Assembly (NCBI RefSeq): GCF_016907715.1
Contig: NZ_JAFBCM010000001.1
Span: forward strand, 7,913,420-7,977,419
DNA: 64,000 nucleotides
Direction of reading: 5' to 3'
From: Tenggerimyces flavus
GTDB taxonomy: Bacteria > Actinomycetota > Actinomycetes > Propionibacteriales > Actinopolymorphaceae
Program-made: the position numbers and the translations under genes
Shown: positions 14,522-61,747 of the stretch, in pieces
Numbering within the stretch: the stretch's first letter is position 1
Layout: each line of letters opens with the position of its first letter
The notes under the pieces: model-generated
The model's input: the letters and a program-made list of their open reading frames with translations, nothing else
Database searches by the model: none
What the model was told of the DNA's origin: nothing

Positions 14522-14944
14522 GTGGCCTGTGGTCAGACGTATCTGTGGAGAGGCGAAACCACCTGGTTCTGCTGCGGTCCCGGCTGGGGACCGTGCGGCA
14601 GCGCGGGCGGCGGAGCCTGCGGCGGCTGTCGGTCGGACAGCATGCACGCGGCTTGGCCGAACCCGTACCAGTCCTGCTGGAACATCACCCGCCCCGACCA
14701 GTGCGGCGAGGGCGCGATCCCCCGTCGGGGTTGCGGCTCGGTGATGAACGTACGGCACCAGTGCGGCGCGACCGTGTGCGTCACGATCCGCGACTGCGGC
14801 CCGCGTACGCGCAGCTGGTGCGGCGAGCTCGCGTGCTGCAACGGCGAGTGCCGTTCGAACCGGATCTTCGACATGACGCCCGCCGCGTTCGCCGCGATCG
14901 GCAATCTCAACGCCGGCAAGGCGCCGGTCTGGATCTACGAGTAG
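14522..14944 (+). CDS. Cysteine-rich double-psi beta-barrel (RlpA/expansin-like) protein
   Basis: 140 residues with 16 cysteines, an even number that would allow eight disulfides. A Cys/Gly/Trp-rich N-terminal half (FCCGPGWGPCGSAGGGACGGC) is followed by a barrel-like part: CVTIRDCGPR, then RIFDMTPAAFAAIGNLNAGKAPVWIYE. These match the conserved D-x-GP and DLS-x-AAF-x-x-I motifs of RlpA/expansin barrels. There is no signal peptide, which is odd for a disulfide-rich protein. GTG at 14522 follows AAGGAG at 8 nt. It lies 17 bp upstream of a Tat-exported protein and is followed by a MauE gene, so co-export and disulfide formation outside the cell are plausible but inferred. Confidence 0.7.
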   Translation: MACGQTYLWRGETTWFCCGPGWGPCGSAGGGACGGCRSDSMHAAWPNPYQSCWNITRPDQCGEGAIPRRGCGSVMNVRHQCGATVCVTIRDCGPRTRSWCGELACCNGECRSNRIFDMTPAAFAAIGNLNAGKAPVWIYE

Positions 14945-17874: not shown

Positions 17875-18726
17875 ATGACCCGCCTCTCGAGTGAGCTTCT
17901 CGGCTTCGCGCCCGACGACCGCGTCCTGCTCGTGAACTGCGACGACTTCGGCATGCACGACGCGGTGAACCGAGGGATCATCGACGCTCTCGAGAACGGC
18001 ATCGCCAGCTCGTGCAGCCTGATGACCCCCTGCCCAGCGGCTGCTGACGCGATGACGTACCTCCGAGCGCGACCAGACGTGTCGTTCGGCATCCACTTCT
18101 CACTGATCCGCGACTCGGCGGAGTACTACTGGGAGCCACTGGCGGACGACGTACCGTCACTGCTCGATCCGGCTACGGGCGAGCTGTTCGTGGACTCGCC
18201 CGCGAACCGCCAGCGGCTGCTCGCCCAAGCGCGCCTCTCCGATGTCGAGCGGGAACTGCGCGCGCAGCTCCAGATCGTCCTCGACGCCGGCCTGAAGCCC
18301 ACCCACCTCGACTGGCACTGCCTCGCCGACGGAGGCCGCCCCGACATCCTGGCGCTCGCCGTGTCCCTAGCCGCGGAGCACGGCCTAGCAGCCCGGGTGT
18401 GGCTGGACGAAGGCCTCCGCCTCGCCCGAGCAGAGGGCAAGCCGGTGGTGGACCACGGCTTCCTGGACAGCTTCTCGCTAGAGCTGGACGACAAGTCGGC
18501 GACCTACGAACGACTGCTGCGATCGCTCAAGCCGGGCCTGACGGAGTGGGCAATCCACCCAGCGATTGGTACGGAGGAGTGGCAGGAGATCGAGCCTGGA
18601 GGCTGGAGAGTACGGCAGACGGACCACGACTTCCTGACGTCAGCACGAGCCAGAGAGGTACTCGACGAGGAGAGAATCAAGGGCATCGACTACCGACCAC
18701 TCCAACAAGCCTGGGCAAGCGCATAG
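17875..18726 (+). CDS. ChbG/YdjC-like carbohydrate deacetylase
   Basis: 283 residues of the ChbG/HpnK family. The metal and catalytic motifs are visible: LLVNCDDFGMHDAVNRGI (catalytic Asp pair), GIHFSL (first metal histidine), LKPTHLDWHC (second histidine region), and EWAIHPAIG near the end. The family removes acetyl groups from N-acetyl sugars such as diacetylchitobiose. The ATG at 17875 lacks a Shine-Dalgarno sequence; CAGACT (17862-17867) ends 7 nt before it, consistent with leaderless transcription. Divergent from the FemX gene; a joint cell-wall or amino-sugar role is only suggested by position. Confidence 0.88.
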   Translation: MTRLSSELLGFAPDDRVLLVNCDDFGMHDAVNRGIIDALENGIASSCSLMTPCPAAADAMTYLRARPDVSFGIHFSLIRDSAEYYWEPLADDVPSLLDPATGELFVDSPANRQRLLAQARLSDVERELRAQLQIVLDAGLKPTHLDWHCLADGGRPDILALAVSLAAEHGLAARVWLDEGLRLARAEGKPVVDHGFLDSFSLELDDKSATYERLLRSLKPGLTEWAIHPAIGTEEWQEIEPGGWRVRQTDHDFLTSARAREVLDEERIKGIDYRPLQQAWASA

Positions 18727-18927
18727 CCCCCACAAGCGACGCAAGCACGGCAACAGACCGGAACCGAAAGCAGGCCTGCCCCGGGTGACCAGGCCACACC
18801 CCGGCTTCATCCGAGCCACAAGAAGCAGAGGGCCCACAGGAGACGGCAACACCGCAGCAGACCTGGCCCGCAAGCAGGCCTGTCCCGGGACACCTGTTCC
18901 GGGGGGCGGGGCGGCGCGTTTGAAACT

Positions 18928-19040
18928 GGTGGCCGGGCCGGGGCGGGTCAAGGGCCGCAACGCGGTCGCGAAGCGACGCCTCTCCCCCTGCGCGAAGCGC
19001 CCCCGGAGAGGCGCCCTTGAGGCGCCCCGGACCGGCCACC
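18928..19040 (-). repeat. Structured repeat, family D copy 1 (about 113 bp)
   Basis: Outer 18-bp arms (18928-18945 and 19023-19040, one mismatch) enclose a core that, read on the minus strand, has GGCGCCTCTC, GGCGCTTCGCGC, GAGAGGCGTCGCTTCGCGA. The same core occurs on the plus strand at 26991-27043 with different but again self-complementary outer arms. Orientation is therefore opposite at the two ends of the nucleoside locus. Confidence 0.75.
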
Positions 19041-19148
19041 ACACTCGGACGCCGCCACAGACCCCGAGAGCACCAAACTCCCGGAGAGACCCTGTCGCAA
19101 CAGTGAAGAGCTGACCAAAGAAGAGCTCTCTCACGCCACGCCGGCGCG

Positions 19149-19250
19149 CAGCACCCCGCGCAATGAGGTGTGCGGCCATCAGCTCGGCTGTCGTTCGCGC
19201 AGGACCCCGCGCGATGAGGCGTGCGGTCATCGGCTCGGCTGTCCTCTGCG
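19149..19250. repeat. Tandem duplication, 2 x 51 bp
   Basis: Two adjacent 51-bp units (19149-19199, 19200-19250) differ at about nine positions. Both contain ACCCCGCGC, ATGAGG, GTGCGG and CTCGGCTGTC. No gene or spacer-repeat pattern; not a CRISPR array. Confidence 0.8.
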
Positions 19251-19327
19251 CAGCTCCACCTTGCGCGGCGGGCTGTCGGTGCGCGGAGTCGAGATCTCTA
19301 GCTGATGGGTCGCCTCGTGAGTTTATG

Positions 19328-19469
19328 GGCCGCCCTCAATGTCAAGGGCGCGTTCGCGTCTCGTGACAATCAGCTTGCGTGGTTGGTGTTGTTGCGTGGC
19401 TGGGGGCTGATTGCCACGAGATCAGGCCGTGGCCGGCCTGACCCTTGACATTGAGCCTCTCGGCGGCCC
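19328..19469. repeat. Long imperfect inverted repeat (about 142 bp)
   Basis: Left arm 19328-19373 and right arm about 19405-19469 pair in blocks: GGCCGCCCTC with the CGGCGGCC region, CTCAATGTCAAGGG (19335-19348) with CCCTTGACATTGAG (19442-19455), and TCTCGTG-x-CAATCAGC with GCTGATTG-x-CACGAGA. The right arm has a small insertion. The loop (19374-19404) is GT-rich. It could be a remnant of a transposable element or an RNA with a long stem. Confidence 0.7.
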
Positions 19470-19625
19470 GACGCAGGTCGTTAAGGGCAGGCTCCGCCTG
19501 CCCACCCGTGCCCCGCGGCGACCCGGCACGAGCAGCAGCGCTGAGATCCAAAGACGCTCAGCTTCACGCACTCACCTCCCGCGGCCACACCCCGGCCACC
19601 TCCAGCGGTGGCCGTCACCATTCTC

Positions 19626-19676
19626 GTTAGCGCGAAGAACATGAGCGCTATAGCGACCAAAAGTCTTCGCGCTAAC
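19626..19676. repeat. 51-bp palindrome, family C copy 1
   Basis: 13-bp arms GTTAGCGCGAAGA (19626-19638) and TCTTCGCGCTAAC (19664-19676) surround a 25-bp core containing AGCGCTATAGCGACC and AAAAG. Same size and core as copies at 19707-19757 and 28514-28564, with different arms. Confidence 0.85.
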
Positions 19677-19706
19677 CTCCGACCGCGGCCCGAGCCGGCG
19701 CCAGCG

Positions 19707-19757
19707 ATGATTGTGGAAACTATGGGCGCTATAGCGACCCAAAGTTTCCACAATCAT
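19707..19757. repeat. 51-bp palindrome, family C copy 2
   Basis: 13-bp arms ATGATTGTGGAAA (19707-19719) and TTTCCACAATCAT (19745-19757) around a 25-bp core with GGCGCTATAGCGACCC and AAAG. The arms share almost nothing with copy 1, yet pair perfectly. It lies 20 bp after the end of the thymidine phosphorylase gene; only 30 bp separate it from copy 1. Confidence 0.85.
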
Positions 19758-19776
19758 GCCGCTCCCTGTCGCGAGG

Positions 19777-21063
19777 TCAGCCGATCCGGTCGAGGACCAG
19801 CTTCGACTCCGGGCGCGAGCCCGCGGGGGCGATCTCGATCGCACCCACCAACGCGTCCATCGCGCGGGCGAAGCGCGAAGGGTCCTCGGCATGCAACGTC
19901 AACAACGGCTGGCCCGCCCGGACTTCAGCGCCCTGCTTTGCGTGGATCTCCACCCCAGCCGAAGCCGACACCGGGTCCTCCTTGCGCGCCCGACCAGCAC
20001 CCAGCCGCCAAGCGGCCACGCCCACCGCGTAAGCGTCCAGCTTGACCAGCACCCCAGAAGATGGCGCCAACACCGACTCCGTCTCCGGCGCCACCGGCAG
20101 CGCAGCTGACGGATCGCCGCCCTGCGCAACGATCATCCGCCGCCACACGTCCATCGCGCGCCCGTCCAACAGCGCGTCCGCTGGGTCGACCCCGTCCACC
20201 CCTGCGGCCGACAGCATCTCGCGCGCCAGCGTCACGGTCAGCGAGATCACGTCCGCCGGACCGCCGCCGGCCAGCACCTCCACGGACTCGCGCACCTCGA
20301 GCGCGTTCCCGGCAGTCAGACCCAAAGGCGTCGACATGTCGGTGAGGCACGCGACCGTACGTACGCCCGCCGCCGTCCCCAGCTCCACCATCGTCGCGGC
20401 CAGCGACCGCGCGTCGGCGACGTTCTTCATGAACGCGCCCGACCCGACCTTCACGTCGAGCACCAAAGCGCCCGTGCCCTCGGCGATCTTCTTGCACATG
20501 ATCGAGCTCGCGATCAATGGGATCGACTCCACGGTCCCCGTCACGTCCCGCAGCGCGTACAGCTTCTGGTCCGCCGGCGCCAACGACGACGTCGGCGCGC
20601 AAATCACCGCGCCCACGGAGCCAAGCTGCGACAAAACCTCGTCGAACGAGAGCGAAGCCCGCCACCCAGGAATCGCACCCAGCTTGTCCAAAGTCCCGCC
20701 AGTGTGCCCCAAGCCCCGGCCGGACAGCTGCGGCACAGCCACCCCGCAAGCGGCGACCAACGGCGCCAAGGGCAGCGTGATCTTGTCACCGACGCCACCG
20801 GTCGAGTGCTTGTCCGCGGTCGGCACTCCCAACGACGAGAAGTCCAGCCGTCCGCCCGTACGGATCATCGCGTCGGTCCACCGCGAGATCTCCCGAAACT
20901 CCATGCCCCGCAGCAGAATCGCCATCGCGAGCGAGGACATCTGCTCGTCAGCCACCACCGAACGCGTGTACGCGTCGACGACCCAGTCGATCTGCTCGTC
21001 GCTGAGCTCGCCGCCGTCTCGCTTCGCGCGGATCAGATCGACGACGTCGAAGCCCTCAGCCAT
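19777..21063 (-). CDS. deoA: Thymidine (pyrimidine-nucleoside) phosphorylase
   Basis: A 428-residue enzyme that splits thymidine or uridine with phosphate into base and (deoxy)ribose-1-phosphate. It starts FDVVDLIRAKRDGGELSDEQIDW, contains the phosphate-site motif DKHSTGGVGDKITLPLAPL, the PQLSGRGLGHTGGTLDKL signature, DVKVGSGAFMK and GNALEVRES, and ends with a biotinyl-like alpha/beta domain (VEIHAKQGAEVRAGQPLLTLHA). Start at 21061-21063, overlapping the end of cdd by 8 bp; the longer frame extends into cdd. Last gene of the nucleoside operon. Confidence 0.95.
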   Translation of the reverse strand: MAEGFDVVDLIRAKRDGGELSDEQIDWVVDAYTRSVVADEQMSSLAMAILLRGMEFREISRWTDAMIRTGGRLDFSSLGVPTADKHSTGGVGDKITLPLAPLVAACGVAVPQLSGRGLGHTGGTLDKLGAIPGWRASLSFDEVLSQLGSVGAVICAPTSSLAPADQKLYALRDVTGTVESIPLIASSIMCKKIAEGTGALVLDVKVGSGAFMKNVADARSLAATMVELGTAAGVRTVACLTDMSTPLGLTAGNALEVRESVEVLAGGGPADVISLTVTLAREMLSAAGVDGVDPADALLDGRAMDVWRRMIVAQGGDPSAALPVAPETESVLAPSSGVLVKLDAYAVGVAAWRLGAGRARKEDPVSASAGVEIHAKQGAEVRAGQPLLTLHAEDPSRFARAMDALVGAIEIAPAGSRPESKLVLDRIG

Positions 21064-21469
21064 GCCCCACAACTCCCCCCTCTTTTGACAGCAGAGTCTC
21101 TGGGCCAAATGCCTGCGGCAGCACCTCGTTCATCGAGAGCACACCCTCCGGCGTATCGACGAGCAACGCGGATCCGCCGTGCTCGTACAGCAACTGCCGG
21201 CAACGTCCGCACGGCATCAACAAAGCACCCTGCCCGTCGCAGCACGAGAACGCCACCAGCCGCCCGCCACCGCTCAGAGCCAAGGCCGACACCAGCCCGC
21301 ACTCCGCGCACAACGTCAAGCCGTACGAGGCATTCTCGACGTTGCAGCCCACCACGATCCGCCCATCGGAGACGAGCGCCGCCGCGCCCACCGGAAAGCG
21401 AGAGTACGGTACGTACGCATGCGTCATCGCCTCGCGCGCGGCAGCGCGCAGCGCTTCCCAATCCACCAT
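21056..21469 (-). CDS. cdd: Cytidine deaminase
   Basis: 137 residues, homotetrameric type. Substrate and zinc motifs: PYSRFPVGAAALVSDGRIVVGCNVENASYGLTLCAECGLVSALALSGG (the CAE element with the catalytic glutamate) and MPCGRCRQLLYEHGG (the PCxxC zinc pair). It converts cytidine and deoxycytidine to uridine forms, which the next enzyme, thymidine phosphorylase, can cleave. Start ATG at 21467-21469, 5 bp after the permease stop; the long upstream extension of this frame is only a shadow of the permease. Confidence 0.95.
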   Translation of the reverse strand: MVDWEALRAAAREAMTHAYVPYSRFPVGAAALVSDGRIVVGCNVENASYGLTLCAECGLVSALALSGGGRLVAFSCCDGQGALLMPCGRCRQLLYEHGGSALLVDTPEGVLSMNEVLPQAFGPETLLSKEGGVVGHG

Positions 21470-21474
21470 GAAGC

Positions 21475-22752
21475 TCAGCTTTTCACGTACGGTTCGCCGT
21501 CGGCCTTCGGCGCCCGCACCCTGCCGACCAGCCCGGCGACCGCGATGATCGTGGCGAGGTACGGCGCCATCAACAGCACGTCGCCCGGGATCGGCGTGTC
21601 GATGATCTGCAGCTGACTCTGCAGCTGCGTCGCGAACCCAAAGAACAGCGCCGCGAGCGTCGCACCGACCGGGTGCCACCGCCCCATGATCAACGCAGCG
21701 AGCGCGATGAAGCCGTTGCCTGCGGTCATGTCCTTGTTGAACGAGCCACCAAAGCCGACCGTGAAGAACGCGCCGCCGAGGCCCGCGAACACGCCACCCA
21801 GCAGCACCGCCTGGTACCGCACCCGCAGCACGTTGATGCCCACGGTGTCCGCCGCCCGCGGGTGCTCGCCCACGGCGCGAACGCGCAATCCCCAACGGGT
21901 CTTGAACAAAACGTACGTCACGATCGCGACCGCGGCGTACATCGCGTAGACCAGGATCGTCTGCCGGAACAGCACGTCGCCAATCACCGGGATGTCGGAC
22001 AGCAACGGGATCGGGATCGCCTGCAGCACGTCGGGGTTGTTGAACGCCGACGCATCGTCCTGCACGAACTGGTCGAACAGGAAGCCGGTGATGCCCGTCG
22101 CGAACACCACGAGCACGACGCCGAGCACGACCTGGTTGACCAGGTAGCGGATGCTGAACACCGCGAGCAGCGCGGCGATCAGAACCCCGCCGCCGATCGC
22201 GGCGATCATGCCGACGTACGCGTTGCCGAACACCGTCGCGAACACCGCCGCGGCGAACGCGCCGACGAGGAACTGGCCTTCGATCGCGACGTTGATGACG
22301 CCCGAGCGTTCGCACAGCACACCGGCCAACGCGCCCAGGATCAGCGGTGTCGCGAAGCTCATCGTGCCCTGGAACTGGTTGGTCAGCGGGAAGACCTTCC
22401 CCGACGCCGCCCAGCTCAGGAACGTGAAGATGAACGTGGTCGCGAGCAGCGCCCACAGCACCCAGGCCCAGCGGGCCGGCAGCTTCTGCAGGACGTAGAG
22501 CACCGCGACCGCGACGGCGACGACGGCGCCGATCCACGCGAGCGGCTGGGCGGGGAGGGCGAGGTTCAACGGAGTCTCGGCGAACTGACCGGACAGCCGG
22601 AACGTCACCGTTCCTGGTTTGGTGGTCACCGCGAGCACCACGGCGACCAACGCGACGAACCCCAGCAGCACGCCGTTGCGGTTGCGGCGCCGGCGGTCGG
22701 CGACGCTCTCGACGACGGGAGCGGGCTCGACCCTCTCGACGGTGGCAGTCAC
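21475..22752 (-). CDS. Nucleoside ABC transporter permease 2 (NupQ/YufQ-like)
   Basis: 425 residues, about ten membrane helices, BPD_transp_2 family. The N-terminus has a charged segment and two or three extra helices. The core holds the cytoplasmic contact motif LCERSGVINVAIEGQFLVGAFAAAVFA and GINVLRVRYQAVLLGGVFAGLGGAFFTVGFGGSFNKDMTAGNGFIALAALIMGRWHPVGA, typical for BMP-linked nucleoside transporters. The GTG at 22750-22752 overlaps the stop of permease 1 (GTGA). Works with the other permease, the double ATPase and the BMP lipoprotein. Confidence 0.93.
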   Translation of the reverse strand: MTATVERVEPAPVVESVADRRRRNRNGVLLGFVALVAVVLAVTTKPGTVTFRLSGQFAETPLNLALPAQPLAWIGAVVAVAVAVLYVLQKLPARWAWVLWALLATTFIFTFLSWAASGKVFPLTNQFQGTMSFATPLILGALAGVLCERSGVINVAIEGQFLVGAFAAAVFATVFGNAYVGMIAAIGGGVLIAALLAVFSIRYLVNQVVLGVVLVVFATGITGFLFDQFVQDDASAFNNPDVLQAIPIPLLSDIPVIGDVLFRQTILVYAMYAAVAIVTYVLFKTRWGLRVRAVGEHPRAADTVGINVLRVRYQAVLLGGVFAGLGGAFFTVGFGGSFNKDMTAGNGFIALAALIMGRWHPVGATLAALFFGFATQLQSQLQIIDTPIPGDVLLMAPYLATIIAVAGLVGRVRAPKADGEPYVKS

Positions 22753-23969
22753 GCGTTCCACCCCTTCGCCAGAACGGTTCCGCCCGCGCCCTGCGCGCGG
22801 ATCCGGAAGATCGCCCGCACCAGCGCGGGTGCGGCGATGAACAACACGATCGTCGCCTGCAGCACGGTCGTCAGCGTCAACGGGGTCTGCGTGGCGAGCT
22901 GCATCTGCAGGCCGCCGGCGCTCAGCGCGCCGAACAGCAGACCGGCGACGACCGTGCCTAACGGTGTCGCCCGCCCGAGCAGCGCGACCGTGATCGCGTC
23001 GAAGCCGACCGACCCGGCGATACCGTCGGTGAGCGGGAGATCGGTGCCGAGCACCTGCTGGACGCCGGCAAGACCGGCGAGGCCGCCGGCGATCAGCATC
23101 GCCAACGTGTACGAACGTCCGACGCTCATACCGGCCGTACGCGCAGCCTCCGGGTTGGCACCGACCGCACGCAGCTCGAAGCCGATCGTCGACCGGGACA
23201 GGATCCACCAGACGGCGACCGCGGCCAGGATCGCGACGAGGAAGCCGATATGCAGCCGCGTCCCCGGCACGTTCAAGAACTGTGCGCTGCTGTCGACGAC
23301 CGGGCTGATCGAGTCGTCCCGGCCGGGCCGCTGCAGAACGTCCGTCGTGAGCAACCACTGCAGCAGATAGAGGCCGACGTAGTTGAGCATGATCGTCGTG
23401 ATGACCTCGTGCGCGCCGGCTCGCGCCTTGAGGAAGCCGGCGATCGCGCCCCAGAGCGCGCCGCCGAGGATGCCCGCGACGACCGCGGCGATCACGTGCA
23501 GCACGATCGGCAGGTGCCAGGTGAAGCCGACCCAGCCGGCGCAGAGCGCGCCGACGATCAGCTGGCCCTGGGCGCCGATGTTGAACAGGCCGGCGCGGAA
23601 CGCGAGCGACACCGCGAGGCCGCCGCAGATCAGCGGCGAGGCCAGCGTGAGCGTCTCCGAGATCGGCCGCCAACCGCCCAGAGCCCCTTGCAGCAAGGCG
23701 AGATAGGCCTCGGAGACCGCGGTCCACGAGGCGATGAGCGCGTCTGCCGGCCGGGAGAAGAAGTACGTGAACGTCGGGAGCACGTTCTGGTCGCTGATGA
23801 TGATGAGCACCGCGCCGACGACCAGCGCGAGCAGGACGGCGGCGAGGCTGACGATCAGCTCTCGGACCCAGGAGAAGCGGGCGCTGCGTACGGGCGCGGG
23901 CGACGGTGACGGCGCCGGGGCGGGCGCCGGGGTCGGAGCCGGCGTGGCGTCCGGCGGCTGGTCGCTCAT
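22749..23969 (-). CDS. Nucleoside ABC transporter permease 1 (NupP/YufP-like)
   Basis: 406 residues. It begins with a Pro/Ala/Ser-rich tail (about 1-30, PAPTPAPAPAPSPSPAP) unusual for the family, then about nine helices. Family motifs: LICGGLAVSLAFRAGLFNIGAQGQLIVGAL, HEVITTIMLNYVGLYLLQWLL, ELRAVGANPEAARTAGMSVGRSYTLAMLIAGGLAGLAGV, and DAITVALLGRATPLGTVVAGLLFGAL. Start at 23967-23969 overlaps the ATPase stop (ATGA). Pairs with permease 2 to form the channel. Confidence 0.93.
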   Translation of the reverse strand: MSDQPPDATPAPTPAPAPAPSPSPAPVRSARFSWVRELIVSLAAVLLALVVGAVLIIISDQNVLPTFTYFFSRPADALIASWTAVSEAYLALLQGALGGWRPISETLTLASPLICGGLAVSLAFRAGLFNIGAQGQLIVGALCAGWVGFTWHLPIVLHVIAAVVAGILGGALWGAIAGFLKARAGAHEVITTIMLNYVGLYLLQWLLTTDVLQRPGRDDSISPVVDSSAQFLNVPGTRLHIGFLVAILAAVAVWWILSRSTIGFELRAVGANPEAARTAGMSVGRSYTLAMLIAGGLAGLAGVQQVLGTDLPLTDGIAGSVGFDAITVALLGRATPLGTVVAGLLFGALSAGGLQMQLATQTPLTLTTVLQATIVLFIAAPALVRAIFRIRAQGAGGTVLAKGWNA

Positions 23970-25519
23970 TCGACACTCCCCAACATCGTCGGGTGCTCCT
24001 CGGCCTCCTGTGCGGCCTCCTCCGGCGCGAACCCTGCCATCATCAAGCCCAGCTGGTCCCACGGGGTGTCGGGTCCGACGATGCCGACGATCCGGCCGCG
24101 GTACATCACCGCGATCCGGTCCGACAGCGCGAAGATCTCGTCGAACTCGGTCGACACCAGGATCACGGCCGTACCCTGGTCGCGTTCACGGACGAGCCGC
24201 TTGTGGACGAACTCGATCGACCCGACGTCCAGTCCGCGCGTCGGCTGGCTCGCGATCAACAGCTGCAGCGGCCGCGACAGCTCCCGCGCGAGCACGACCT
24301 TCTGCTGGTTACCGCCGGACAGCGAGCTCACCGGGGTCTCGATGGACTGCGTACGCACGTCGAACTCCTCGACGCGGTTGTCGGCGTTCTTGCGTACGGC
24401 AGCGGGCGAGATCGTGCCACCGCGGGAGAACGGGGCGCTGCGCACGAGGTCGAGGACGAGGTTCTCGGCGACCGAGAACGACCCGACGTACCCGTCGAGC
24501 GACCTGTCCTCCGGGACGTAGCCAATGCCGGCGTCGAGATGCTCGCGTGGTGTGAGCCCGGCGAGGTCGCGACCGCCGAGCCTGATCGCGCCCTTCGCCG
24601 GCGGCATCAGGCCGACGAGCGCCTGGACGAGCTCGCTCTGCCCGTTCCCCTGGACGCCGGCGATGCCGAGGATCTCGCCGCCGCGTACGTCGAACGAGAC
24701 ATCGTCGACGACCGCGTAGCCGTTCAGGTCGGCGATGGAGAGGTGGTCGACCTCGAGCTTCACGTCCTCCGGCGTCGCGGGCGCCTTGTCGACGACGAGC
24801 TGGACGGCCCGTCCGACCATCAGCTCGGCGAGCTCGGTCTCCGACGTCGTCGGTTCGACGGTCGCGATGACCTTGCCGCGCCGGATCACGGTGATCCGGT
24901 CGGCGATCGCCTTGACCTCTTTGAGTTTGTGGGTGATGAACACGATCGCGGTGCCGTTCGCCTTCAGCGAGCGCATCACCTCGATCAGCTCGTCGATCTC
25001 CTGCGGCGTGAGCACCGCGGTCGGCTCGTCGAGGATGAGGACCTTGGCCTCGTTCGCCAGCGCCTTGAGGATCTCGACACGCTGCTGGACGCCGACCGGG
25101 ATGTTCTCGATCTTCGCGGCCGGATCGACCGACAGGCCGTACTGCTCCGACAGGTTGCGGACGAGCTTGTCGGCGGCGGCTCGGTCGAGCAGGCCGAGGC
25201 CCTTGGTCTGCTCGCGGCCGAGCATGACGTTCTCGGCGACTGTGAAGACAGGAACGAGCATGAAGTGCTGGTGCACCATGCCGATTCCGGCGTTGATGGC
25301 CTCACGGGGTGAGGAGCAGGTGATCGCCTTGCCGTCGAGGGTGACCGTGCCCTCGTCGGGAGCGAGCAGGCCGTACAGCATGTTCATCAACGTGCTCTTG
25401 CCGGCGCCGTTCTCGCCCAGCAGGCAGTGGATCTCGCCTGGTTCGACGGTGAGGTCGATGTGGTCGTTGGCGACCAGGGCGCCGAATCGTTTGGTCAGAC
25501 CTCGGAGCTCGAGCGTCAT
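23966..25519 (-). CDS. Nucleoside ABC transporter ATPase with two nucleotide-binding domains (NupO/YufO-like)
   Basis: 517 residues, two tandem nucleotide-binding domains. The first (about 1-235) has Walker A GENGAGKST, VGVQQRVEILKAL as signature region, and Walker B VLILDEPTAVLTPQEIDEL. The second (about 255-500) has an altered Walker A (GVQGNGQSEL), signature LSGGNQQKVVLARELS, and a degenerate Walker B (LLIASQPTRGLDVGS) as usual in this sugar/nucleoside importer class. It follows the BMP gene after a 75-bp gap that holds a strong hairpin, and overlaps permease 1. Energises uptake of nucleosides. Confidence 0.93.
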   Translation of the reverse strand: MTLELRGLTKRFGALVANDHIDLTVEPGEIHCLLGENGAGKSTLMNMLYGLLAPDEGTVTLDGKAITCSSPREAINAGIGMVHQHFMLVPVFTVAENVMLGREQTKGLGLLDRAAADKLVRNLSEQYGLSVDPAAKIENIPVGVQQRVEILKALANEAKVLILDEPTAVLTPQEIDELIEVMRSLKANGTAIVFITHKLKEVKAIADRITVIRRGKVIATVEPTTSETELAELMVGRAVQLVVDKAPATPEDVKLEVDHLSIADLNGYAVVDDVSFDVRGGEILGIAGVQGNGQSELVQALVGLMPPAKGAIRLGGRDLAGLTPREHLDAGIGYVPEDRSLDGYVGSFSVAENLVLDLVRSAPFSRGGTISPAAVRKNADNRVEEFDVRTQSIETPVSSLSGGNQQKVVLARELSRPLQLLIASQPTRGLDVGSIEFVHKRLVRERDQGTAVILVSTEFDEIFALSDRIAVMYRGRIVGIVGPDTPWDQLGLMMAGFAPEEAAQEAEEHPTMLGSVE

Positions 25520-25544
25520 CCGTACCCCTTGCCCGTGAGTGCCC

Positions 25545-25580
25545 GGAGGAGGGGACCCATGCCCCGAGGTCCCCTCCTCC
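25545..25580 (-). terminator. Hairpin between BMP and the transporter genes (attenuator-like)
   Basis: Perfect 13-bp stem, GGAGGAGGGGACC (25545-25557) pairing with 25568-25580, with a 10-nt loop. No T-run follows on either strand. Its place, between the binding-protein gene and the ATPase gene of one operon, fits partial termination or mRNA 3'-end protection that keeps binding-protein mRNA more abundant than transporter mRNA. Confidence 0.65.
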
Positions 25581-25594
25581 GCGAACGTCGCGCC

Positions 25595-26737
25595 TTATGA
25601 CGCCTTCGGCTGGACCTTCGACTTCAGGGTGATCTTGCCGCCGATGATGTCCTGCTTCAGCTGGTCGATCTCGGACTTCAGCTCGGCTGGCACCTTGCTG
25701 TCGAACTCGTGGTACGGCGAGAGTCCGGTGCCCTCGTTCTCCAGCGTGCCGACGTACGGGGTGTTGTCGAACTTGTCCTCGTACGAGGTGGTGATGACGT
25801 CCTGCACGGCGATGTCCATGCCCTTGTAGACACTGGAGATCAGCACGGAGCAGTACTCCGGCGCACTGACGCAGCCGTCGGTGTCGACCCAGATCGCGTT
25901 GACCTTGCCGTTGCTGGCCTTGGCCGCCTGCAGCGCGCCGAGGCCGGCGGGACCGGCGACCGGGAACACGATGTCGGCGCCCTGGCTGATCAGGTTCTGC
26001 GCGGTGGTCTGGCCCTTGGCCTTGTTCTCGAAGTCAGCGGTGAACAGGCCCTTCTGGGTCGGCTCGTCCCAGCCCACGACCTTGACGGTCTTGCTCTTGG
26101 TCGTGTTGTAGTGCTGGACGCCCTCCCAGAACCCGTCCATGAAGATGGACACGGTCGGGATGTTGAGGCCGCCGAACGTACCGACGGTGCCGGACTGCGT
26201 CATGCCCGCGGCGAGGTAGCCCGCGAGGAAGCTCGACTCGGCGGTGTTGAACAGCAGGCCCTTGACGTTCGTCGGGATCGACGGGATGCCCAGCTTCTTG
26301 GTGTCGGTGACGTTGATGTCGTAGTCGACGATGCCGAACTTGATGTCCGCGTGCTCCGTCGCCGACAGCGCGGTCTGGTCACCGAGCTTGAAGCCGACGG
26401 TCACGATCACGTTGCACTTGGCGGTGACCATGCCGTTGACGTTGTTCGGGTAGTCGGTGTCGGACTGCGACTCCGCCTTGCCCTCCTCGATCCCCAGCGC
26501 CTTGACCGCGTCCTGCAGGCCCTTGTAGGAGGTCTGGTTGAACGACTTGTCGTCGAAGCCACCGGAGTCGGAGACCATGCAGGCCTTGAAGTCCTTCTTG
26601 GCGGGGTCCTGACTGGCCGTCCCCGTCGCACCGCCGCCGTCACTTCCAGGTGAGGTCTCCGGCGGCGGACTGCCGCATGCCGCCAGCGCAACCGCGGCCA
26701 CGCCAGCCACCGCGAGTCCCCACAGGTACTTCTTCAC
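25595..26737 (-). CDS. BMP family nucleoside-binding lipoprotein
   Basis: 380 residues. Lipoprotein signal KKYLWGLAVAGVAAVALAAC with the lipobox LAAC, then a Gly/Ser/Thr-rich tether, then the BMP/PnrA domain: ACMVSDSGGFDDKSFNQTSYKGL (the nucleoside-contact start), KCNVIVTVGFKLGDQT, SSFLAGYLAAGMTQSGTVGTFGG, GADIVFPVAGPAGLGALQAA and AIWVDTDG. This matches purine/pyrimidine nucleoside receptors of importers like Nup/Bmp. GAGGAGG precedes the ATG. It is the first gene of the operon with the ATPase, permeases, cdd and deoA, which identifies nucleosides as the likely cargo. Confidence 0.93.
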   Translation of the reverse strand: MKKYLWGLAVAGVAAVALAACGSPPPETSPGSDGGGATGTASQDPAKKDFKACMVSDSGGFDDKSFNQTSYKGLQDAVKALGIEEGKAESQSDTDYPNNVNGMVTAKCNVIVTVGFKLGDQTALSATEHADIKFGIVDYDINVTDTKKLGIPSIPTNVKGLLFNTAESSFLAGYLAAGMTQSGTVGTFGGLNIPTVSIFMDGFWEGVQHYNTTKSKTVKVVGWDEPTQKGLFTADFENKAKGQTTAQNLISQGADIVFPVAGPAGLGALQAAKASNGKVNAIWVDTDGCVSAPEYCSVLISSVYKGMDIAVQDVITTSYEDKFDNTPYVGTLENEGTGLSPYHEFDSKVPAELKSEIDQLKQDIIGGKITLKSKVQPKAS

Positions 26738-27193
26738 GAACGCCTCCTCGTGCCCCTATGTGTCTGACCGCACACGCGGCGTTGCCGCCATGCGGGCGCC
26801 CAGCGTTGCGCGTTTGGGTGACTATAGGACCGGAAGCGGTCGCGGCGTTGTGGTACCTGTGGATCGCGCCCGTCCTGTTACCTGTCGGTAACGATCCCCG
26901 GGCCTTCGCGGGCTGTTTGGCGACGTGCTCCTGCGCCGGAACTCCGCCTCGTCATCTCGTCCGCCATGGTCCGGTCGCGGCTGAGCGAGTCAAGGGCGCC
27001 TCTCTAGGTGGCGCTTCGCGCGGGAGAGAGGCGTCGCTTCGCGATCTTCGACCGTTGACTAGCTCCACCGCGACCGGAAAGGCGCATGGACGAGATCGAC
27101 GTGGCGCCTGATCGACTCCCAGCCAACTCCCTGGCGACACCACTGCCCCACGACCAGCTCGGCAACGACCGTTGGCACGAGGCGCTGGGCGGG
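26738..27193. other. 456-bp intergenic region with promoter side of the nucleoside operon and repeat D copy 2
   Basis: The part next to 26738 must hold the minus-strand promoter of the BMP operon; I could not fix its boxes. The part 26970-27078 is the family D structured repeat. The open frames that cross the region have no gene-like character. Confidence 0.6.
26970..27078 (+). repeat. Structured repeat, family D copy 2 (about 109 bp)
   Basis: Outer arms TCCGGTCGCGG (26970-26980) and CCGCGACCGGA (27068-27078), second stem AGTCAA/TTGACT, and the core 26991-27043 with GGCGCCTCTC, GGCGCTTCGCGC and GAGAGGCGTCGCTTCGCGA, as in copy 1 but on the opposite strand. The outer arm sequence differs from copy 1 but is again self-complementary. 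Confidence 0.75.
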
Positions 27194-28417
27194 TTAGACG
27201 ACCGCGTCGTGCCAGGCGTTGCCGCCCAGCAGGGCGGCGGCGACCATCAGGCGTACGCCGACGCCGATGGCGTGCTCGTCGATGTCGAACGTGCCCTGGT
27301 GCAGGTCACCGCCCGGGTGGCTGCCCGGGCTGCGGACGCCGAGGCGGGCGAGGGCGCCGGGGACTTCGGTGAGGTACCAGGCGAAGTCCTCGCCGCCGAG
27401 GCTCTGGTCGGTCGTCGTGATCGCCGAACGTCCCAGCATCGACTCCGCCGCGTCGTGCAGCATCGCGGTGGCGACGGGATCGTTCACGACCGGCGGGACG
27501 CCGCGGTGCACGTCGACGTCGATCTCCACGCCGTACGGGCGCACGATCTCCTTCGCGAGCTCCGGCACGATCTCGGCGCTGGTTTCCCAGGCGTCGCGGT
27601 CGAGGCACCGGAGCGTGCCCTCGGCCTCGCCCTCCATCGGGATCGCGTTCGCGGCGGCTCCGGCGTGGATCCGCCCCCAGACCATGGTGAGGCCGGCGCG
27701 CGGGTCGACCCTGCGCGAGAGGGCGGCGGGGAGCTGGCTGACGAGTGTGCTCAGCGCGTGCACGAGGTCGGCGGACAGGTGTGGCCGTGCCGTGTGCCCG
27801 CCAGGCCCGGTGAGCCGTACGTGCACCCGGTCGGCCGCGGCGGTGATCGGGCCGCTCCGCAGCCCGACCTGGCCCGCTTCGAGCTTGGGGTCGCAGTGCA
27901 GGCAGTAGATCTGGTCGACGCCCTCGAGCCCGCCGGCCGCCATCACGTCGAGCGCGCCGCCGGGGATGAGCTCCTCGGCGGGCTGGAAGATCAGCCGTAC
28001 GCCGTGCGGAAGCTTGCCCTGGGCCTGCAGCTCGGCGAGCACGAGCCCGGCACCGAGCACGACCGTGGTGTGCACGTCGTGCCCGCAGGCGTGGCAGACC
28101 CCGTTGCGGGTCGAACGGTACGGAACGCCCTTCTCGTCGGCGACGCGCAGCGCGTCCAGGTCAGCCCGCAGCCCGACCCGCGTCGTGCGGTCGGTCGCGT
28201 TGCCGTCCAGGTCGGCGATCAGGCCGGTACCCACAGGAAGATGTCTGGGCTGCAGACCCGCCTCGATGAGTCGCTCGGACACGACGCGGGTCGTACGGAA
28301 CTCCTCCCGCCCCGGCTCAGGGTGCGCATGCAGGTCACGCCGGAACAGCACCAGCTCGTCAACGTACGTCTTGACGAGCCGATCGACGTCGGCGACCAGT
28401 TCAGAATGGAGGGGCAC
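27194..28417 (-). CDS. M20 family metal-dependent amidohydrolase/carboxypeptidase
   Basis: 407 residues of the M20D group (hippurate hydrolase/N-acyl amino acid amidohydrolase type). Motifs: LFRRDLHAHPEPGREEF, VGLRADLDALRV, GVCHACGHDVHTTVVLGAG (metal Cys/His/Asp), RLIFQPAEELIPGGALDVMAAGGLEGVD (catalytic Glu pair), GPGGHTARP in the lid domain, and SLGGEDFAWYL near the end. It would cleave an acyl or amide bond of an N-acyl amino acid. No Shine-Dalgarno; a GACAAT hexamer ends 7 nt before the GTG, so it is probably leaderless. No functional neighbours. Confidence 0.9.
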   Translation of the reverse strand: MPLHSELVADVDRLVKTYVDELVLFRRDLHAHPEPGREEFRTTRVVSERLIEAGLQPRHLPVGTGLIADLDGNATDRTTRVGLRADLDALRVADEKGVPYRSTRNGVCHACGHDVHTTVVLGAGLVLAELQAQGKLPHGVRLIFQPAEELIPGGALDVMAAGGLEGVDQIYCLHCDPKLEAGQVGLRSGPITAAADRVHVRLTGPGGHTARPHLSADLVHALSTLVSQLPAALSRRVDPRAGLTMVWGRIHAGAAANAIPMEGEAEGTLRCLDRDAWETSAEIVPELAKEIVRPYGVEIDVDVHRGVPPVVNDPVATAMLHDAAESMLGRSAITTTDQSLGGEDFAWYLTEVPGALARLGVRSPGSHPGGDLHQGTFDIDEHAIGVGVRLMVAAALLGGNAWHDAVV

Positions 28418-28513
28418 CCGATCAATTGTCCACGCCCCCCGTGATATAGACGCGAGGACCCCTACAAACGGTCACCTTCACTACCCTCCGTAACCACCAC
28501 AGGGGTCGCCGGA

Positions 28514-28564
28514 GTTAGCCCGAAGACTTTTCGTTGCTATAGCGCTAATTATCTTCGGCCTATC
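28514..28564. repeat. 51-bp palindrome, family C copy 3
   Basis: 13-bp arms GTTAGCCCGAAGA (28514-28526) and TCTTCGGCCTATC (28552-28564; two mismatches) around a 25-bp core which, on the reverse strand, reads AGCGCTATAGCAACGAAAAG at its conserved end. Identical total length to copies 1 and 2. It lies in the divergent region between the M20 and AbiEi/DUF559 genes. Confidence 0.8.
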
Positions 28565-28607
28565 TGTTTTCCACAGATTTCGCCTCGAGCGGCCATGTGG
28601 GTGGCGG

Positions 28608-29555
28608 ATGCCCGATCGTCGAACGATGTACGAACTCGTCAGGCGCCAGGCCGGCGTGGTGCGCATCGACCAGCTGCTCGCCGCGGGAATCACCCGAGCC
28701 CAGATCCGAGCTCACGTGGCCGCTCGGCGCTGGCAACGCATCCACCCTCGCGTCCATGCGCTCTTCACCGGCCCACTGCCACGGGCGGCCGAGCTGTGGG
28801 CGGCAGTGCTCTACGCGGGCTCGGGAGCCGTGCTCAGCTTTGAGTCGGCTGCAGAGGTCTGGGGACTCAACGAGCGCACCGTTGGCCCGGTCCACGTCAC
28901 CATCCCGAGTACGCGACGGGTGACGCCCCAAGCAGGGCTGCGCATCCACACCGCAGAGGGGCTAGAAGCAGCAAGACATCCCACGAAGAGGCCGCCAGTG
29001 ACCAGGGTGGAGGACACGGTGATCGACCTGATCGACAAAGCAAAGAACCTCGAAGAGGTCATGACCTGGATCACCCGAGCCTGCCAACGAAGGCGAACCA
29101 CCCCCGATCGCCTCCATGCCGCCTTGAACGCCCGCCCCCGCCAAGCCTGGCGCGACCTCACAGCGAAAGTCCTGGCCGAGGTCGAAGACGGAGCAGAATC
29201 CCCGCTCGAGCTCGAATACGTAAGACGCGTCGAACGCCCCCACAACCTGCCGTCAGCAGCACGCCAACGGAAGATCGCAACCGGCCATTGGGTCGATGCG
29301 ATCTACGAGAACTACCGACTGATCGTGGAGCTCGATGGGCGGCTGGGCCACATCGAGGAAGGAGTGTTCCGCGATCACAAGAGAGACAACAGGTCGACCG
29401 AGCGTGGCTTCGCCACGCTCAGATTTGGATGGAGTGACGTGATGGGGAACACCTGCTCCATAGCGGAGCAGGTGATGAGTGCGCTGCGAAGGAACGGTTG
29501 GCGAAGCGAGTCGAAGAAGTGCGGAGCGGGATGCCAGCTGGCGAGAGCGGCCTAA
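28608..29555 (+). CDS. AbiEi-like winged-helix plus DUF559/Vsr-like endonuclease-fold protein
   Basis: 315 residues (a start at the second ATG, 28626, is also possible). The N-terminal part has the AbiEi-type winged helix: ELVRRQAGVVRIDQLLAAGITRAQIRAHVAARRWQRIHPRVHAL. The middle carries the AbiEi-like VLSFESAAEVWGL and P-x-VHVTIPSTRR. The C-terminus has a DUF559 nuclease-like core: ESPLELEYVRRVE, HWVDAIYENYRLIVELDGRLGH, and F-R-DHKRDN (PD-(D/E)xK type Glu, Asp, Glu-x-Asp). Such proteins are common in actinobacteria in many copies. There is no toxin gene next to it, so a toxin-antitoxin role is not supported. Its end overlaps the convergent glycosyltransferase by 4 bp. Confidence 0.85.
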   Translation: MPDRRTMYELVRRQAGVVRIDQLLAAGITRAQIRAHVAARRWQRIHPRVHALFTGPLPRAAELWAAVLYAGSGAVLSFESAAEVWGLNERTVGPVHVTIPSTRRVTPQAGLRIHTAEGLEAARHPTKRPPVTRVEDTVIDLIDKAKNLEEVMTWITRACQRRRTTPDRLHAALNARPRQAWRDLTAKVLAEVEDGAESPLELEYVRRVERPHNLPSAARQRKIATGHWVDAIYENYRLIVELDGRLGHIEEGVFRDHKRDNRSTERGFATLRFGWSDVMGNTCSIAEQVMSALRRNGWRSESKKCGAGCQLARAA

Positions 29556-48254: not shown

Positions 48255-48329
48255 GTGATCATGTACGTGATCATGAAGCGAAACAGGCGTATGGGACGGC
48301 CCCGGCTTCATGATCACGTACATGATCAC
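48255..48329. repeat. Inverted repeat, family B copy 1 (75 bp)
   Basis: Perfect 25-bp arms (48255-48279 and 48305-48329; GTGATCATGTACGTGATCA and its complement) around a 25-bp core with AAAC, GCGTAT and GGAC. It lies in the divergent region between the CNNM gene and galT. A related element is at 61674-61747 with an A in place of a T in one arm and the matching change in the other. Confidence 0.85.
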
Positions 48330-53376: not shown

Positions 53377-53437
53377 GGTTTGGATGAAGGGCACCTTCAT
53401 TCAATAGGTTCGAATGAAGGTGCCCTTCATTCAAACC
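53377..53437. repeat. Long hairpin, 26-bp arms (family G)
   Basis: Arms 53377-53402 and 53412-53437, one mismatch, loop AATAGGTTC. Each arm contains the inner palindrome GAAGGGCACCTTC, so it can fold in more than one way. It sits 3 bp after the metallophosphoesterase stop and could end its transcript, but no T-run follows and the next gene is in the same direction. Confidence 0.75.
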
Positions 53438-61353: not shown

Positions 61354-61545
61354 GATCACCACCCTGCCAGCCCCGCTCTGCCTTCCTTTGGCGCGGACGA
61401 GCGGCTCATCCGGATCCATGCGAAACCTGTCCGCCCACCAGGGATCCCCGGCTGCCCTGCGGCGTGCCCCGCTGTTCGCGATGGGGTCGGGGGCACCCTT
61501 GTCCGAACCTCCTCGAGCGAGGGGACCCTCCGCCCTTCGCGAAAG

Positions 61546-61595
61546 TGTGGGGTTCTGGTCGCGACACGCCGGCGTGTCGCGACCAGAACCCCACA
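61546..61595. repeat. Perfect 50-bp palindrome without spacer
   Basis: The 25 bases 61546-61570 (TGTGGGGTTCTGGTCGCGAC...) are the exact reverse complement of 61571-61595, centred on GCC|GGC. Three AAA/TTT-like bases outside extend symmetry imperfectly. Such an exact long palindrome would be expected to decay or be cleaved during replication unless recent or protected. Confidence 0.9.
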
Positions 61596-61673
61596 GTTTG
61601 ATGGGACGTGGTGGATGGGCTGGGCTATGGGACCAGGGTGCCCCTCACCCCAACCCTCGGCGCGACCTGGCCA

Positions 61674-61747
61674 TGATCATGAACGTGATCATGAAGGCAA
61701 ACCCTGCGTATACGACCAGTTCGGCTTCATGATCACGTTCATGATCA
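61674..61747. repeat. Inverted repeat, family B copy 2 (74 bp)
   Basis: 23-bp arms (61674-61696 and 61725-61747) around a 28-bp core with AAAC, GCGTAT and GACC. Compared with copy 1 the arm has TGAACG in place of TGTACG, and the partner arm carries the matching change. Confidence 0.85.

Follow-up and report, generated by a model that had tools for sequence, protein, structure and literature searches.

Dispersed palindromes of about 50 bp found beside an AbiEi-DUF559 gene in Tenggerimyces flavus and related actinobacteria

In the REP/RAYT system, as described in PMC2817692 and PMC3733652, extragenic palindromes are dispersed in genome-specific subfamilies and in pairs, and the gene of a Y1 tyrosine transposase (RAYT) is flanked by palindromes resembling the genome's own copies; REP sequences are given as 20-40 bp long, with GTAG or CGTC as the terminal tag (PMC3733652). 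The AbiEi antitoxin is described as autoregulating by binding, in its own promoter, two inverted repeats of 23 bp with 3 bp between them, i.e. 49 bp, and as bending the DNA that it binds (PMC7319586). Here we describe a family of inverted repeats of about 50-56 bp, represented by three copies in a 64,000-nucleotide stretch of the Tenggerimyces flavus genome (the window; contig NZ_JAFBCM010000001.1, positions 7,913,420 to 7,977,419, forward strand) and found together with a gene whose product has an AbiEi-like region and a DUF559 domain. Like REP sequences, these palindromes are dispersed, extragenic and numerous (26 in the source genome and 140 in seven genomes, with one of the 140 overlapping a gene), form genome subfamilies and pairs, and flank a protein gene with sequences resembling the genome's own copies; unlike REP sequences they are longer, and the protein is AbiEi-DUF559 rather than a Y1 tyrosine transposase. 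The AbiEi antitoxin has the AbiEi-like region in common with this protein, and its operator matches the palindromes in size. The protein described here, however, carries an extra DUF559 domain; downstream of the window copy, the one unit whose neighbours were scanned, lies a glycosyltransferase gene and no adjacent AbiEii (DUF1814) toxin gene; and palindromes also lie at the end of the gene and far from any such gene.

Two further systems bear comparison. Vsr-like (EDxHD) enzymes are a homing endonuclease family, and the likeness would lie in the kind of nuclease fold and in the idea of spread by cutting and repair; in the present system hairpin-gene-hairpin units are present in some species where another (G004) has a lone hairpin. 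Unlike homing endonucleases, the present system shows no intron, intein or cut target site. The Neisseria mosaic repeats (NIME/dRS3) are short inverted repeats inside intergenic mosaics; they differ from this family in sequence and size, and we know of no nuclease gene associated with them. A search of the titles and abstract openings of the open-access literature returned no account of palindromes paired with AbiEi-DUF559, which is weak as evidence of absence. We lean towards the view, with moderate confidence since the gene was surveyed in mostly hairpin-selected DNA, that the palindromes are a dispersed REP-like family paired with a putative AbiEi-DUF559 nuclease instead of the REP transposase.

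The gene in question (28608..29555, + strand) encodes 315 amino acids and begins 41 bp downstream of the third window palindrome (copy 3); it had been overlooked in the original prediction, which concerned the palindromes alone, and we think that it is the key to the palindrome family. From its matches to described families, the protein looks like a one-chain fusion of an AbiEi-like DNA-binding region and a DUF559 nuclease domain. The PADLOC AbiEi model matches residues 5-178 (2.1e-27) and Pfam DUF559 matches residues 219-293 (33.2 bits; cut-off 20.6). Each of the five aligned members is recognised by AbiEi models (PADLOC, best 1.3e-27) and by Pfam AbiEi_4 at E <= 0.01, and three match DUF559. 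A profile compared with PDB found 9hlo and 6y8q, which are AbiEi-type structures (E 0.001-0.002), and 3hrl, which is endonuclease-like (E 0.004). DUF559 is listed in Pfam as being of unknown function; we take it to be a PD-(D/E)XK/Vsr-like nuclease domain. Residues D230, E241, D243 and H248, which are invariant in the aligned members together with the residues of an RD..RDN motif, are those expected of such a nuclease. A single-sequence structure model of the window protein was unusable (pLDDT 36.8).

Further members were sought with a protein profile over stop-to-stop open reading frames and with tblastn in 210 sources (1.64 Mb), mostly selected for hairpins. The gene family was found at seven distinct places: the window, L095 (G001), L110 (G002), L112 (G005), L178 (G006), L263 (G371) and L254/L271 (one place, G249). 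Those in G002, G005 and G006 occupy a single orthologous locus, which leaves five independent places; in G002 and G006 a stretch of about 1 kb, enclosed by two hairpins, codes for a member of the window gene's family. Throughout the DNA surveyed, every copy of the gene lies next to a hairpin, often with one at each end and with its stop codon inside the downstream hairpin. A hairpin lies within 100 bp of the matched domain in all seven places; a 930-bp interval placed at random in the 170 loci with hairpins has a probability of 0.027 of lying within 100 bp of one, and of 0.0003 of doing so on both sides. Full hairpins flank both sides in L110, L178, L263 and L271, and in L110, L178 and L263 both are no more than 100 bp away; in L271 they lie 27 bp downstream and 436 bp upstream of a partial domain. 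L095, with a weak second hairpin (15.5 bits), and L112, with an upstream half hairpin seen by eye and not reported by the covariance model, are probably also two-sided. The stop codon falls within the downstream hairpin in all five testable copies, in the loop (L110, L178), in an arm (L263) or at the edge (L271, L095), a count that omits the frameshifted G005 copy and the window copy and takes L095 by its weak hairpin. The leaders of six of the seven units contain TCCACAG on either strand, in the window at 28570..28576 (+) between copy 3 and the gene. Unit hairpins best resemble the solo hairpins of their own genome in five of seven genomes (rank 1 of 13; the others rank 3 and 5), and dN/dS for the gene is 0.19 between G002 and G006 (324 codons). 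At the G002/G006 unit locus, G004, which is closest to G005, carries a single hairpin without any remnant of the gene. Searches by tblastn gave no match in plasmids (two runs) and one partial match in phages; viral contigs, searched twice, gave no match. At L315:4372-4923, about 245 bp from a hairpin, lies a product that is AbiEi-like by eye and has no AbiEi-DUF559 profile match.

The three window palindromes were scored with a covariance model built from 59 hairpins (R2), which followed an earlier model (R1). Copies 1 and 2, a pair of solo hairpins whose starts are 81 bp apart, lie at 19624..19678 (+, 58.5 bits) and 19705..19759 (+, 70.4 bits), and copy 3 lies at 28512..28566 (-, 48.0 bits). 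These 55-bp extents are slightly wider than the 51-bp forms reported originally (19626-19676, 19707-19757 and 28514-28564), whose coordinates and layout of a 13-bp arm, a 25-bp core and a 13-bp arm are confirmed. The core motif AGCGCTATAGCG with at most one mismatch occurs three times in the window, where 0.15 occurrences are expected. The arms pair at 13 of 13 positions in copies 1 and 2 and at 11 of 13 in copy 3, which hence is no perfect palindrome. The arms of copies 1 and 2, which belong to different subfamilies, had been described as sharing nothing; in the register of the covariance model they agree at 6 of the 15 bases on the left and 8 of the 15 on the right and, judged by this agreement, are diverged relatives rather than unrelated. 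Nor is it general that the repeat does not decay, as all 15 outer pairs are intact in one of the 26 hairpins of the genome (range 8-15).

The source genome (G000; 8.5 Mb in one contig, of which the window is part) does contain further copies, with 14 matches of GCGCTATAGCRAC and 26 hairpins detected by R1 and R2. Palindromes match on both strands, and each distinct place was counted once; place 6367201 (E 3.24) was excluded from the hairpin set. The hairpins fall into a few arm subfamilies around a common core. Among the 13 shown in an arm scan, most have both arms of one subfamily, and the sole clear chimera is hairpin 3486308, whose left and right arms come from two different subfamilies. 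Four pairs in this genome have a spacing of exactly 72 bp. Six hairpin pairs in G002 and G004 (L106, L107, L108, L196, L209, L210) have an exact period of 74 bp, about seven helical turns, with an 18-bp linker of variable sequence.

Of eight genomes examined in the taxonomic family, only the source genome has the exact core GCGCTATAGCGACC, and an exact-core search of GTDB r220 contigs, which possibly do not include the source genome, gave two stray matches (L028, L029). R1 already detects relatives in another genus of the same taxonomic family. With R2 at E 1e-4, six of the eight genomes are positive with at least 24 matches each, counting both strands; of the remaining two, G003 yields a single place, at E 1e-3, and G007 yields none. 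The family is rare beyond these relatives, with 10 of 196 genomes and 5 of 29 genera positive in the order as a whole, and patchy in the class (19 of 394 genomes, 13 of 138 genera, under stricter filters). One distant copy, L255, is by eye a perfect 56-bp palindrome. Rfam gave no match in the window at its gathering score, and four matches in L110 (2900-4250) that were all below theirs. A 16-bp palindrome, TTCTTCCGCGGAAGAA, is present in the examined loci of G002 (21 times), G004 (5) and G006 (9), at times at hairpin sites, and is absent from those of G005, G000, G001 and G003.

Arm complementarity exceeds chance: two-sided changes are found at 8 of 22 pairs in a first alignment of 14 copies and at 21 of 25 pairs in the 59-copy alignment. 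In the latter the covariation score is 0.402, compared with 0.180 for shuffles and at most 0.115 for slid controls, and 81.1% of cells are paired, compared with 67.2% when shuffled and at most 43.7% when slid. Orthologous sites, recognised by matches in both flanks, gave 58 hairpin pairs that group into 18 clusters; one cluster extends to G001, where the flanking genes have 68-79% protein identity. For 41 one-to-one ortholog pairs, which share loci and so are not independent, 43 compensated double changes were counted in 464 cells between species groups, where 5.3 are expected if the two sides change independently, and 8 in 192 cells between closest species, where 1.0 is expected. The groups, G004 with G005 and G002 with G006, were defined without a tree from mean protein identity (94.8% and 93.6%, compared with 90.8-92.6% for the other pairs of the four). 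The original prediction, which invoked selection on structure, is partly supported, in that pairing is kept while the sequence turns over.

Arm sequences also differ between the species groups. In the type II subfamily, arms carry, at one position, GGTGGG in 16 of 18 hairpins of G004 and 14 of 14 of G005, and GCTGGG in 18 of 20 of G006; G002 is mixed, mostly GCTGGG. This split agrees with the protein-identity groups, also at orthologous sites; at locus 1110572, GGTGGG is present in all four species. Orthologs are only a little more similar to each other (0.782) than are paralogs within a genome (0.637-0.754). We read this as concerted evolution or as a shared change in recognition.

Hairpins also seem to have been lost from orthologous sites. 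Eleven G005 hairpins have no strict G004 ortholog, although one (5655653) is matched by a G004 hairpin (2327507) beside the same gene; the coding segments at these sites are matched in G004 in 11 of 11 cases. At one orthologous site about 90 bp including the hairpin is absent from G004 and present in G002, G005, G006 and G001. Nineteen further orthologous loci were compared, 10 of them from G004, with alignments covering 14 of the 19; R2 at E 0.1 gave one weak match (L246, G002) and none in the 10 G004 loci. The hairpin was lost together with flanking bases in L235, L237, L240, L250, L251 and L247, a remnant of one arm is left in L234, and L241 has a different palindrome at the site; in L233, L239, L242 and L249 the alignment across the site was too poor to read. 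In L240 (G004) a separate, non-repeat hairpin is kept, as judged by eye.

The position of the hairpins relative to genes raises the possibility that they terminate transcription in both directions, or form hairpins at mRNA 3' ends that selection on RNA structure maintains. Among the 140 hairpins of seven genomes, 78 lie between convergent, 45 between co-directional and 15 between divergent genes, with one at a contig edge and one overlapping a gene; here and in the next comparison copy 3 is counted as co-directional, though it is divergent, because our home-made gene finder missed the gene at 28608. Intergenic regions with hairpins are convergent, co-directional and divergent in 60, 41 and 12 cases, compared with 34, 207 and 116 for hairpin-free regions of at least 60 bp in the same loci, and hairpins lie within 60 bp of a gene end on 74 of 203 3' sides but on 10 of 75 5' sides. 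This bias and closeness to 3' ends, together with the conservation of orthologous positions and of pairing, are what terminators would show. Against this, TTTT is found in 2 of 105 downstream stretches, so that a U tract is lacking, and hairpins read on the sense strand between co-directional genes have as many G-U as A-C mismatches (32 and 32, in a comparison without positive control). RNA-level selection was set aside, as there was no excess of G-U. Moreover, R2 finds no hairpin at the 10 orthologous G004 loci, one of which (L240) keeps its separate hairpin, and terminators require no common sequence and would not bracket one gene family. We consider a terminator role unlikely as an explanation of the family. 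As an observation only, 98 of the 140 hairpins have an even centre, and the central hexamer is a stop codon on both strands in 36 of the 98 and in none at each of six shifted positions, a weak control since the shifted stretches differ in composition; such hexamers fit a palindrome that gives stop codons to whatever reads into it.

A second alternative is that the palindromes are operators of AbiEi-type regulators, i.e. the binding sites of a regulon, without mobility. The published promoter site of AbiEi, two 23-bp inverted repeats 3 bp apart (PMC7319586), and the position of copy 3, 41 bp ahead of an AbiEi-DUF559 start codon, agree with it. However, 60 of 113 hairpin regions are convergent, so that no promoter is expected there, and the second hairpin of a unit lies at the stop of the gene. 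As an account of the whole family this is distinctly improbable, while the upstream hairpin alone may have an operator role.

The original prediction had also suggested that one arm is renewed from the other, and if these were neutral quasi-palindromes with arms restored by template switching during replication, no dedicated protein would be needed. Template switching is described as able to create and maintain hairpins (PMC8794818), and the compensated double changes (43 against 5.3 and 8 against 1.0 expected) are compatible with arm renewal, as are the few loops that fit better when inverted, by up to 12 versus 2. Loop inversion was nevertheless discarded as proof of template switching, since over the 41 ortholog pairs the same orientation gave the better loop fit in 28, the inverted one in 8 and neither in 5, which is not decisive. 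In this genome full pairing is the exception among the arms, an argument against efficient renewal, and template switching leaves unexplained the common sequence among copies, the group-wide arm changes, the gene association and the convergent bias. It may contribute as one mutational step; as the full explanation we hold it to be very improbable. Classical REP elements moved by RAYT would likewise be dispersed, extragenic, divided into genome-specific subfamilies and paired at fixed spacing (74 bp in the six pairs of G002 and G004, 72 bp in the four of G000), but we reject a Y1 mobiliser as scarcely credible, since Y1_Tnp (PF01797) has no match in six of the eight family genomes, including the hairpin-rich G000, G002, G004, G005 and G006, G003 has seven Y1 matches (counted as stretches, some of which seem to fall on one gene) yet one hairpin place, and a hairpin accompanies one of 10 Y1 loci, about 1.4 kb off and on one side only, so that none of the 10 is bracketed.

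The pairing of a REP-like family with the AbiEi-DUF559 protein suggests how the palindromes could spread. The AbiEi part would bind the two arms as two inverted half-sites, the published 49-bp layout fitting palindromes of 50-56 bp in size; the nuclease part would cut at the palindrome or at its extruded hairpin, and repair from another copy would spread and homogenise the palindromes. Solo hairpins such as copies 1 and 2 could then be non-autonomous copies or, alternatively, the remnant left when recombination between flanking hairpins removes the gene. More tentatively, the whole may be a palindrome-homing element, in which an AbiEi-derived binder with a Vsr-like nuclease recognises and cuts palindromes of about 50 bp, and the break is repaired by copying in the palindrome or, at times, palindrome-gene-palindrome; we regard this as possible rather than probable.

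Several observations weigh against pairing of the palindromes with this protein. The window gene has a hairpin upstream only, with none downstream. Solo hairpins lack the leader motif, TCCACAG being found near 3 of 199 against a background of 1.2%. The G005 copy is frameshifted, and the G249 match spans profile positions 184-295 only. One gene copy per genome was seen, with none in the examined loci of hairpin-rich G004, and AbiEi-DUF559 genes distant from hairpins would go unseen, as the loci were selected for hairpins. Among readable loci there is no clean insertion into an empty site; those without a hairpin suggest loss. In L319:5179-6374 and in L303:2925-4086 a pair of hairpins spaced by about 1.1 kb brackets a different small gene, with no AbiEi-DUF559 match. 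As to the protein, the window copy scores 21.8 bits with AbiEi_4, under the Pfam cut-off of 25, two of the five members miss DUF559 at E 0.01, and NCBIfam gave no match.

As for context in the window, copies 1 and 2 lie between convergent genes, a YdjC-like gene (17875..18726, +) and a pyrimidine nucleoside phosphorylase gene (19777..21063, -), whose 3' end is 17 bp from the end of copy 2; an M20 peptidase gene (27194..28417, -) is the divergent neighbour of copy 3. The gap between the convergent genes ahead of copy 1 (18727-19625) is taken up by a mosaic repeat of about 0.9 kb, part of which (about 18800-19090) matches about 40 places in the genome (40 scored of 178 candidates). Long near-perfect palindromes of other families lie at 802-835, 48260-48324, 53377-53437, 61542-61599 and 61679-61742, that at 53377-53437 beginning 3 bp past a gene end. 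A short cysteine-rich open reading frame (14642-14944) adjoins a gene with a Tat-like leader, as seen by eye in the list of reading frames.

Palindromes served by an AbiEi-nuclease fusion would be a second, independent solution beside RAYT, and the pairing would give a concrete function to some DUF559 proteins. Were the tentative homing element real, it would account for spread, for genome-wide concerted evolution of the arms and for arm renewal, all without a transposase, and AbiEi antitoxins and some DUF559 genes would be relatives of a selfish-element protein. The family would also offer a natural case of concerted turnover of paired arms, in which selection and arm-to-arm copying can be tested directly against each other.

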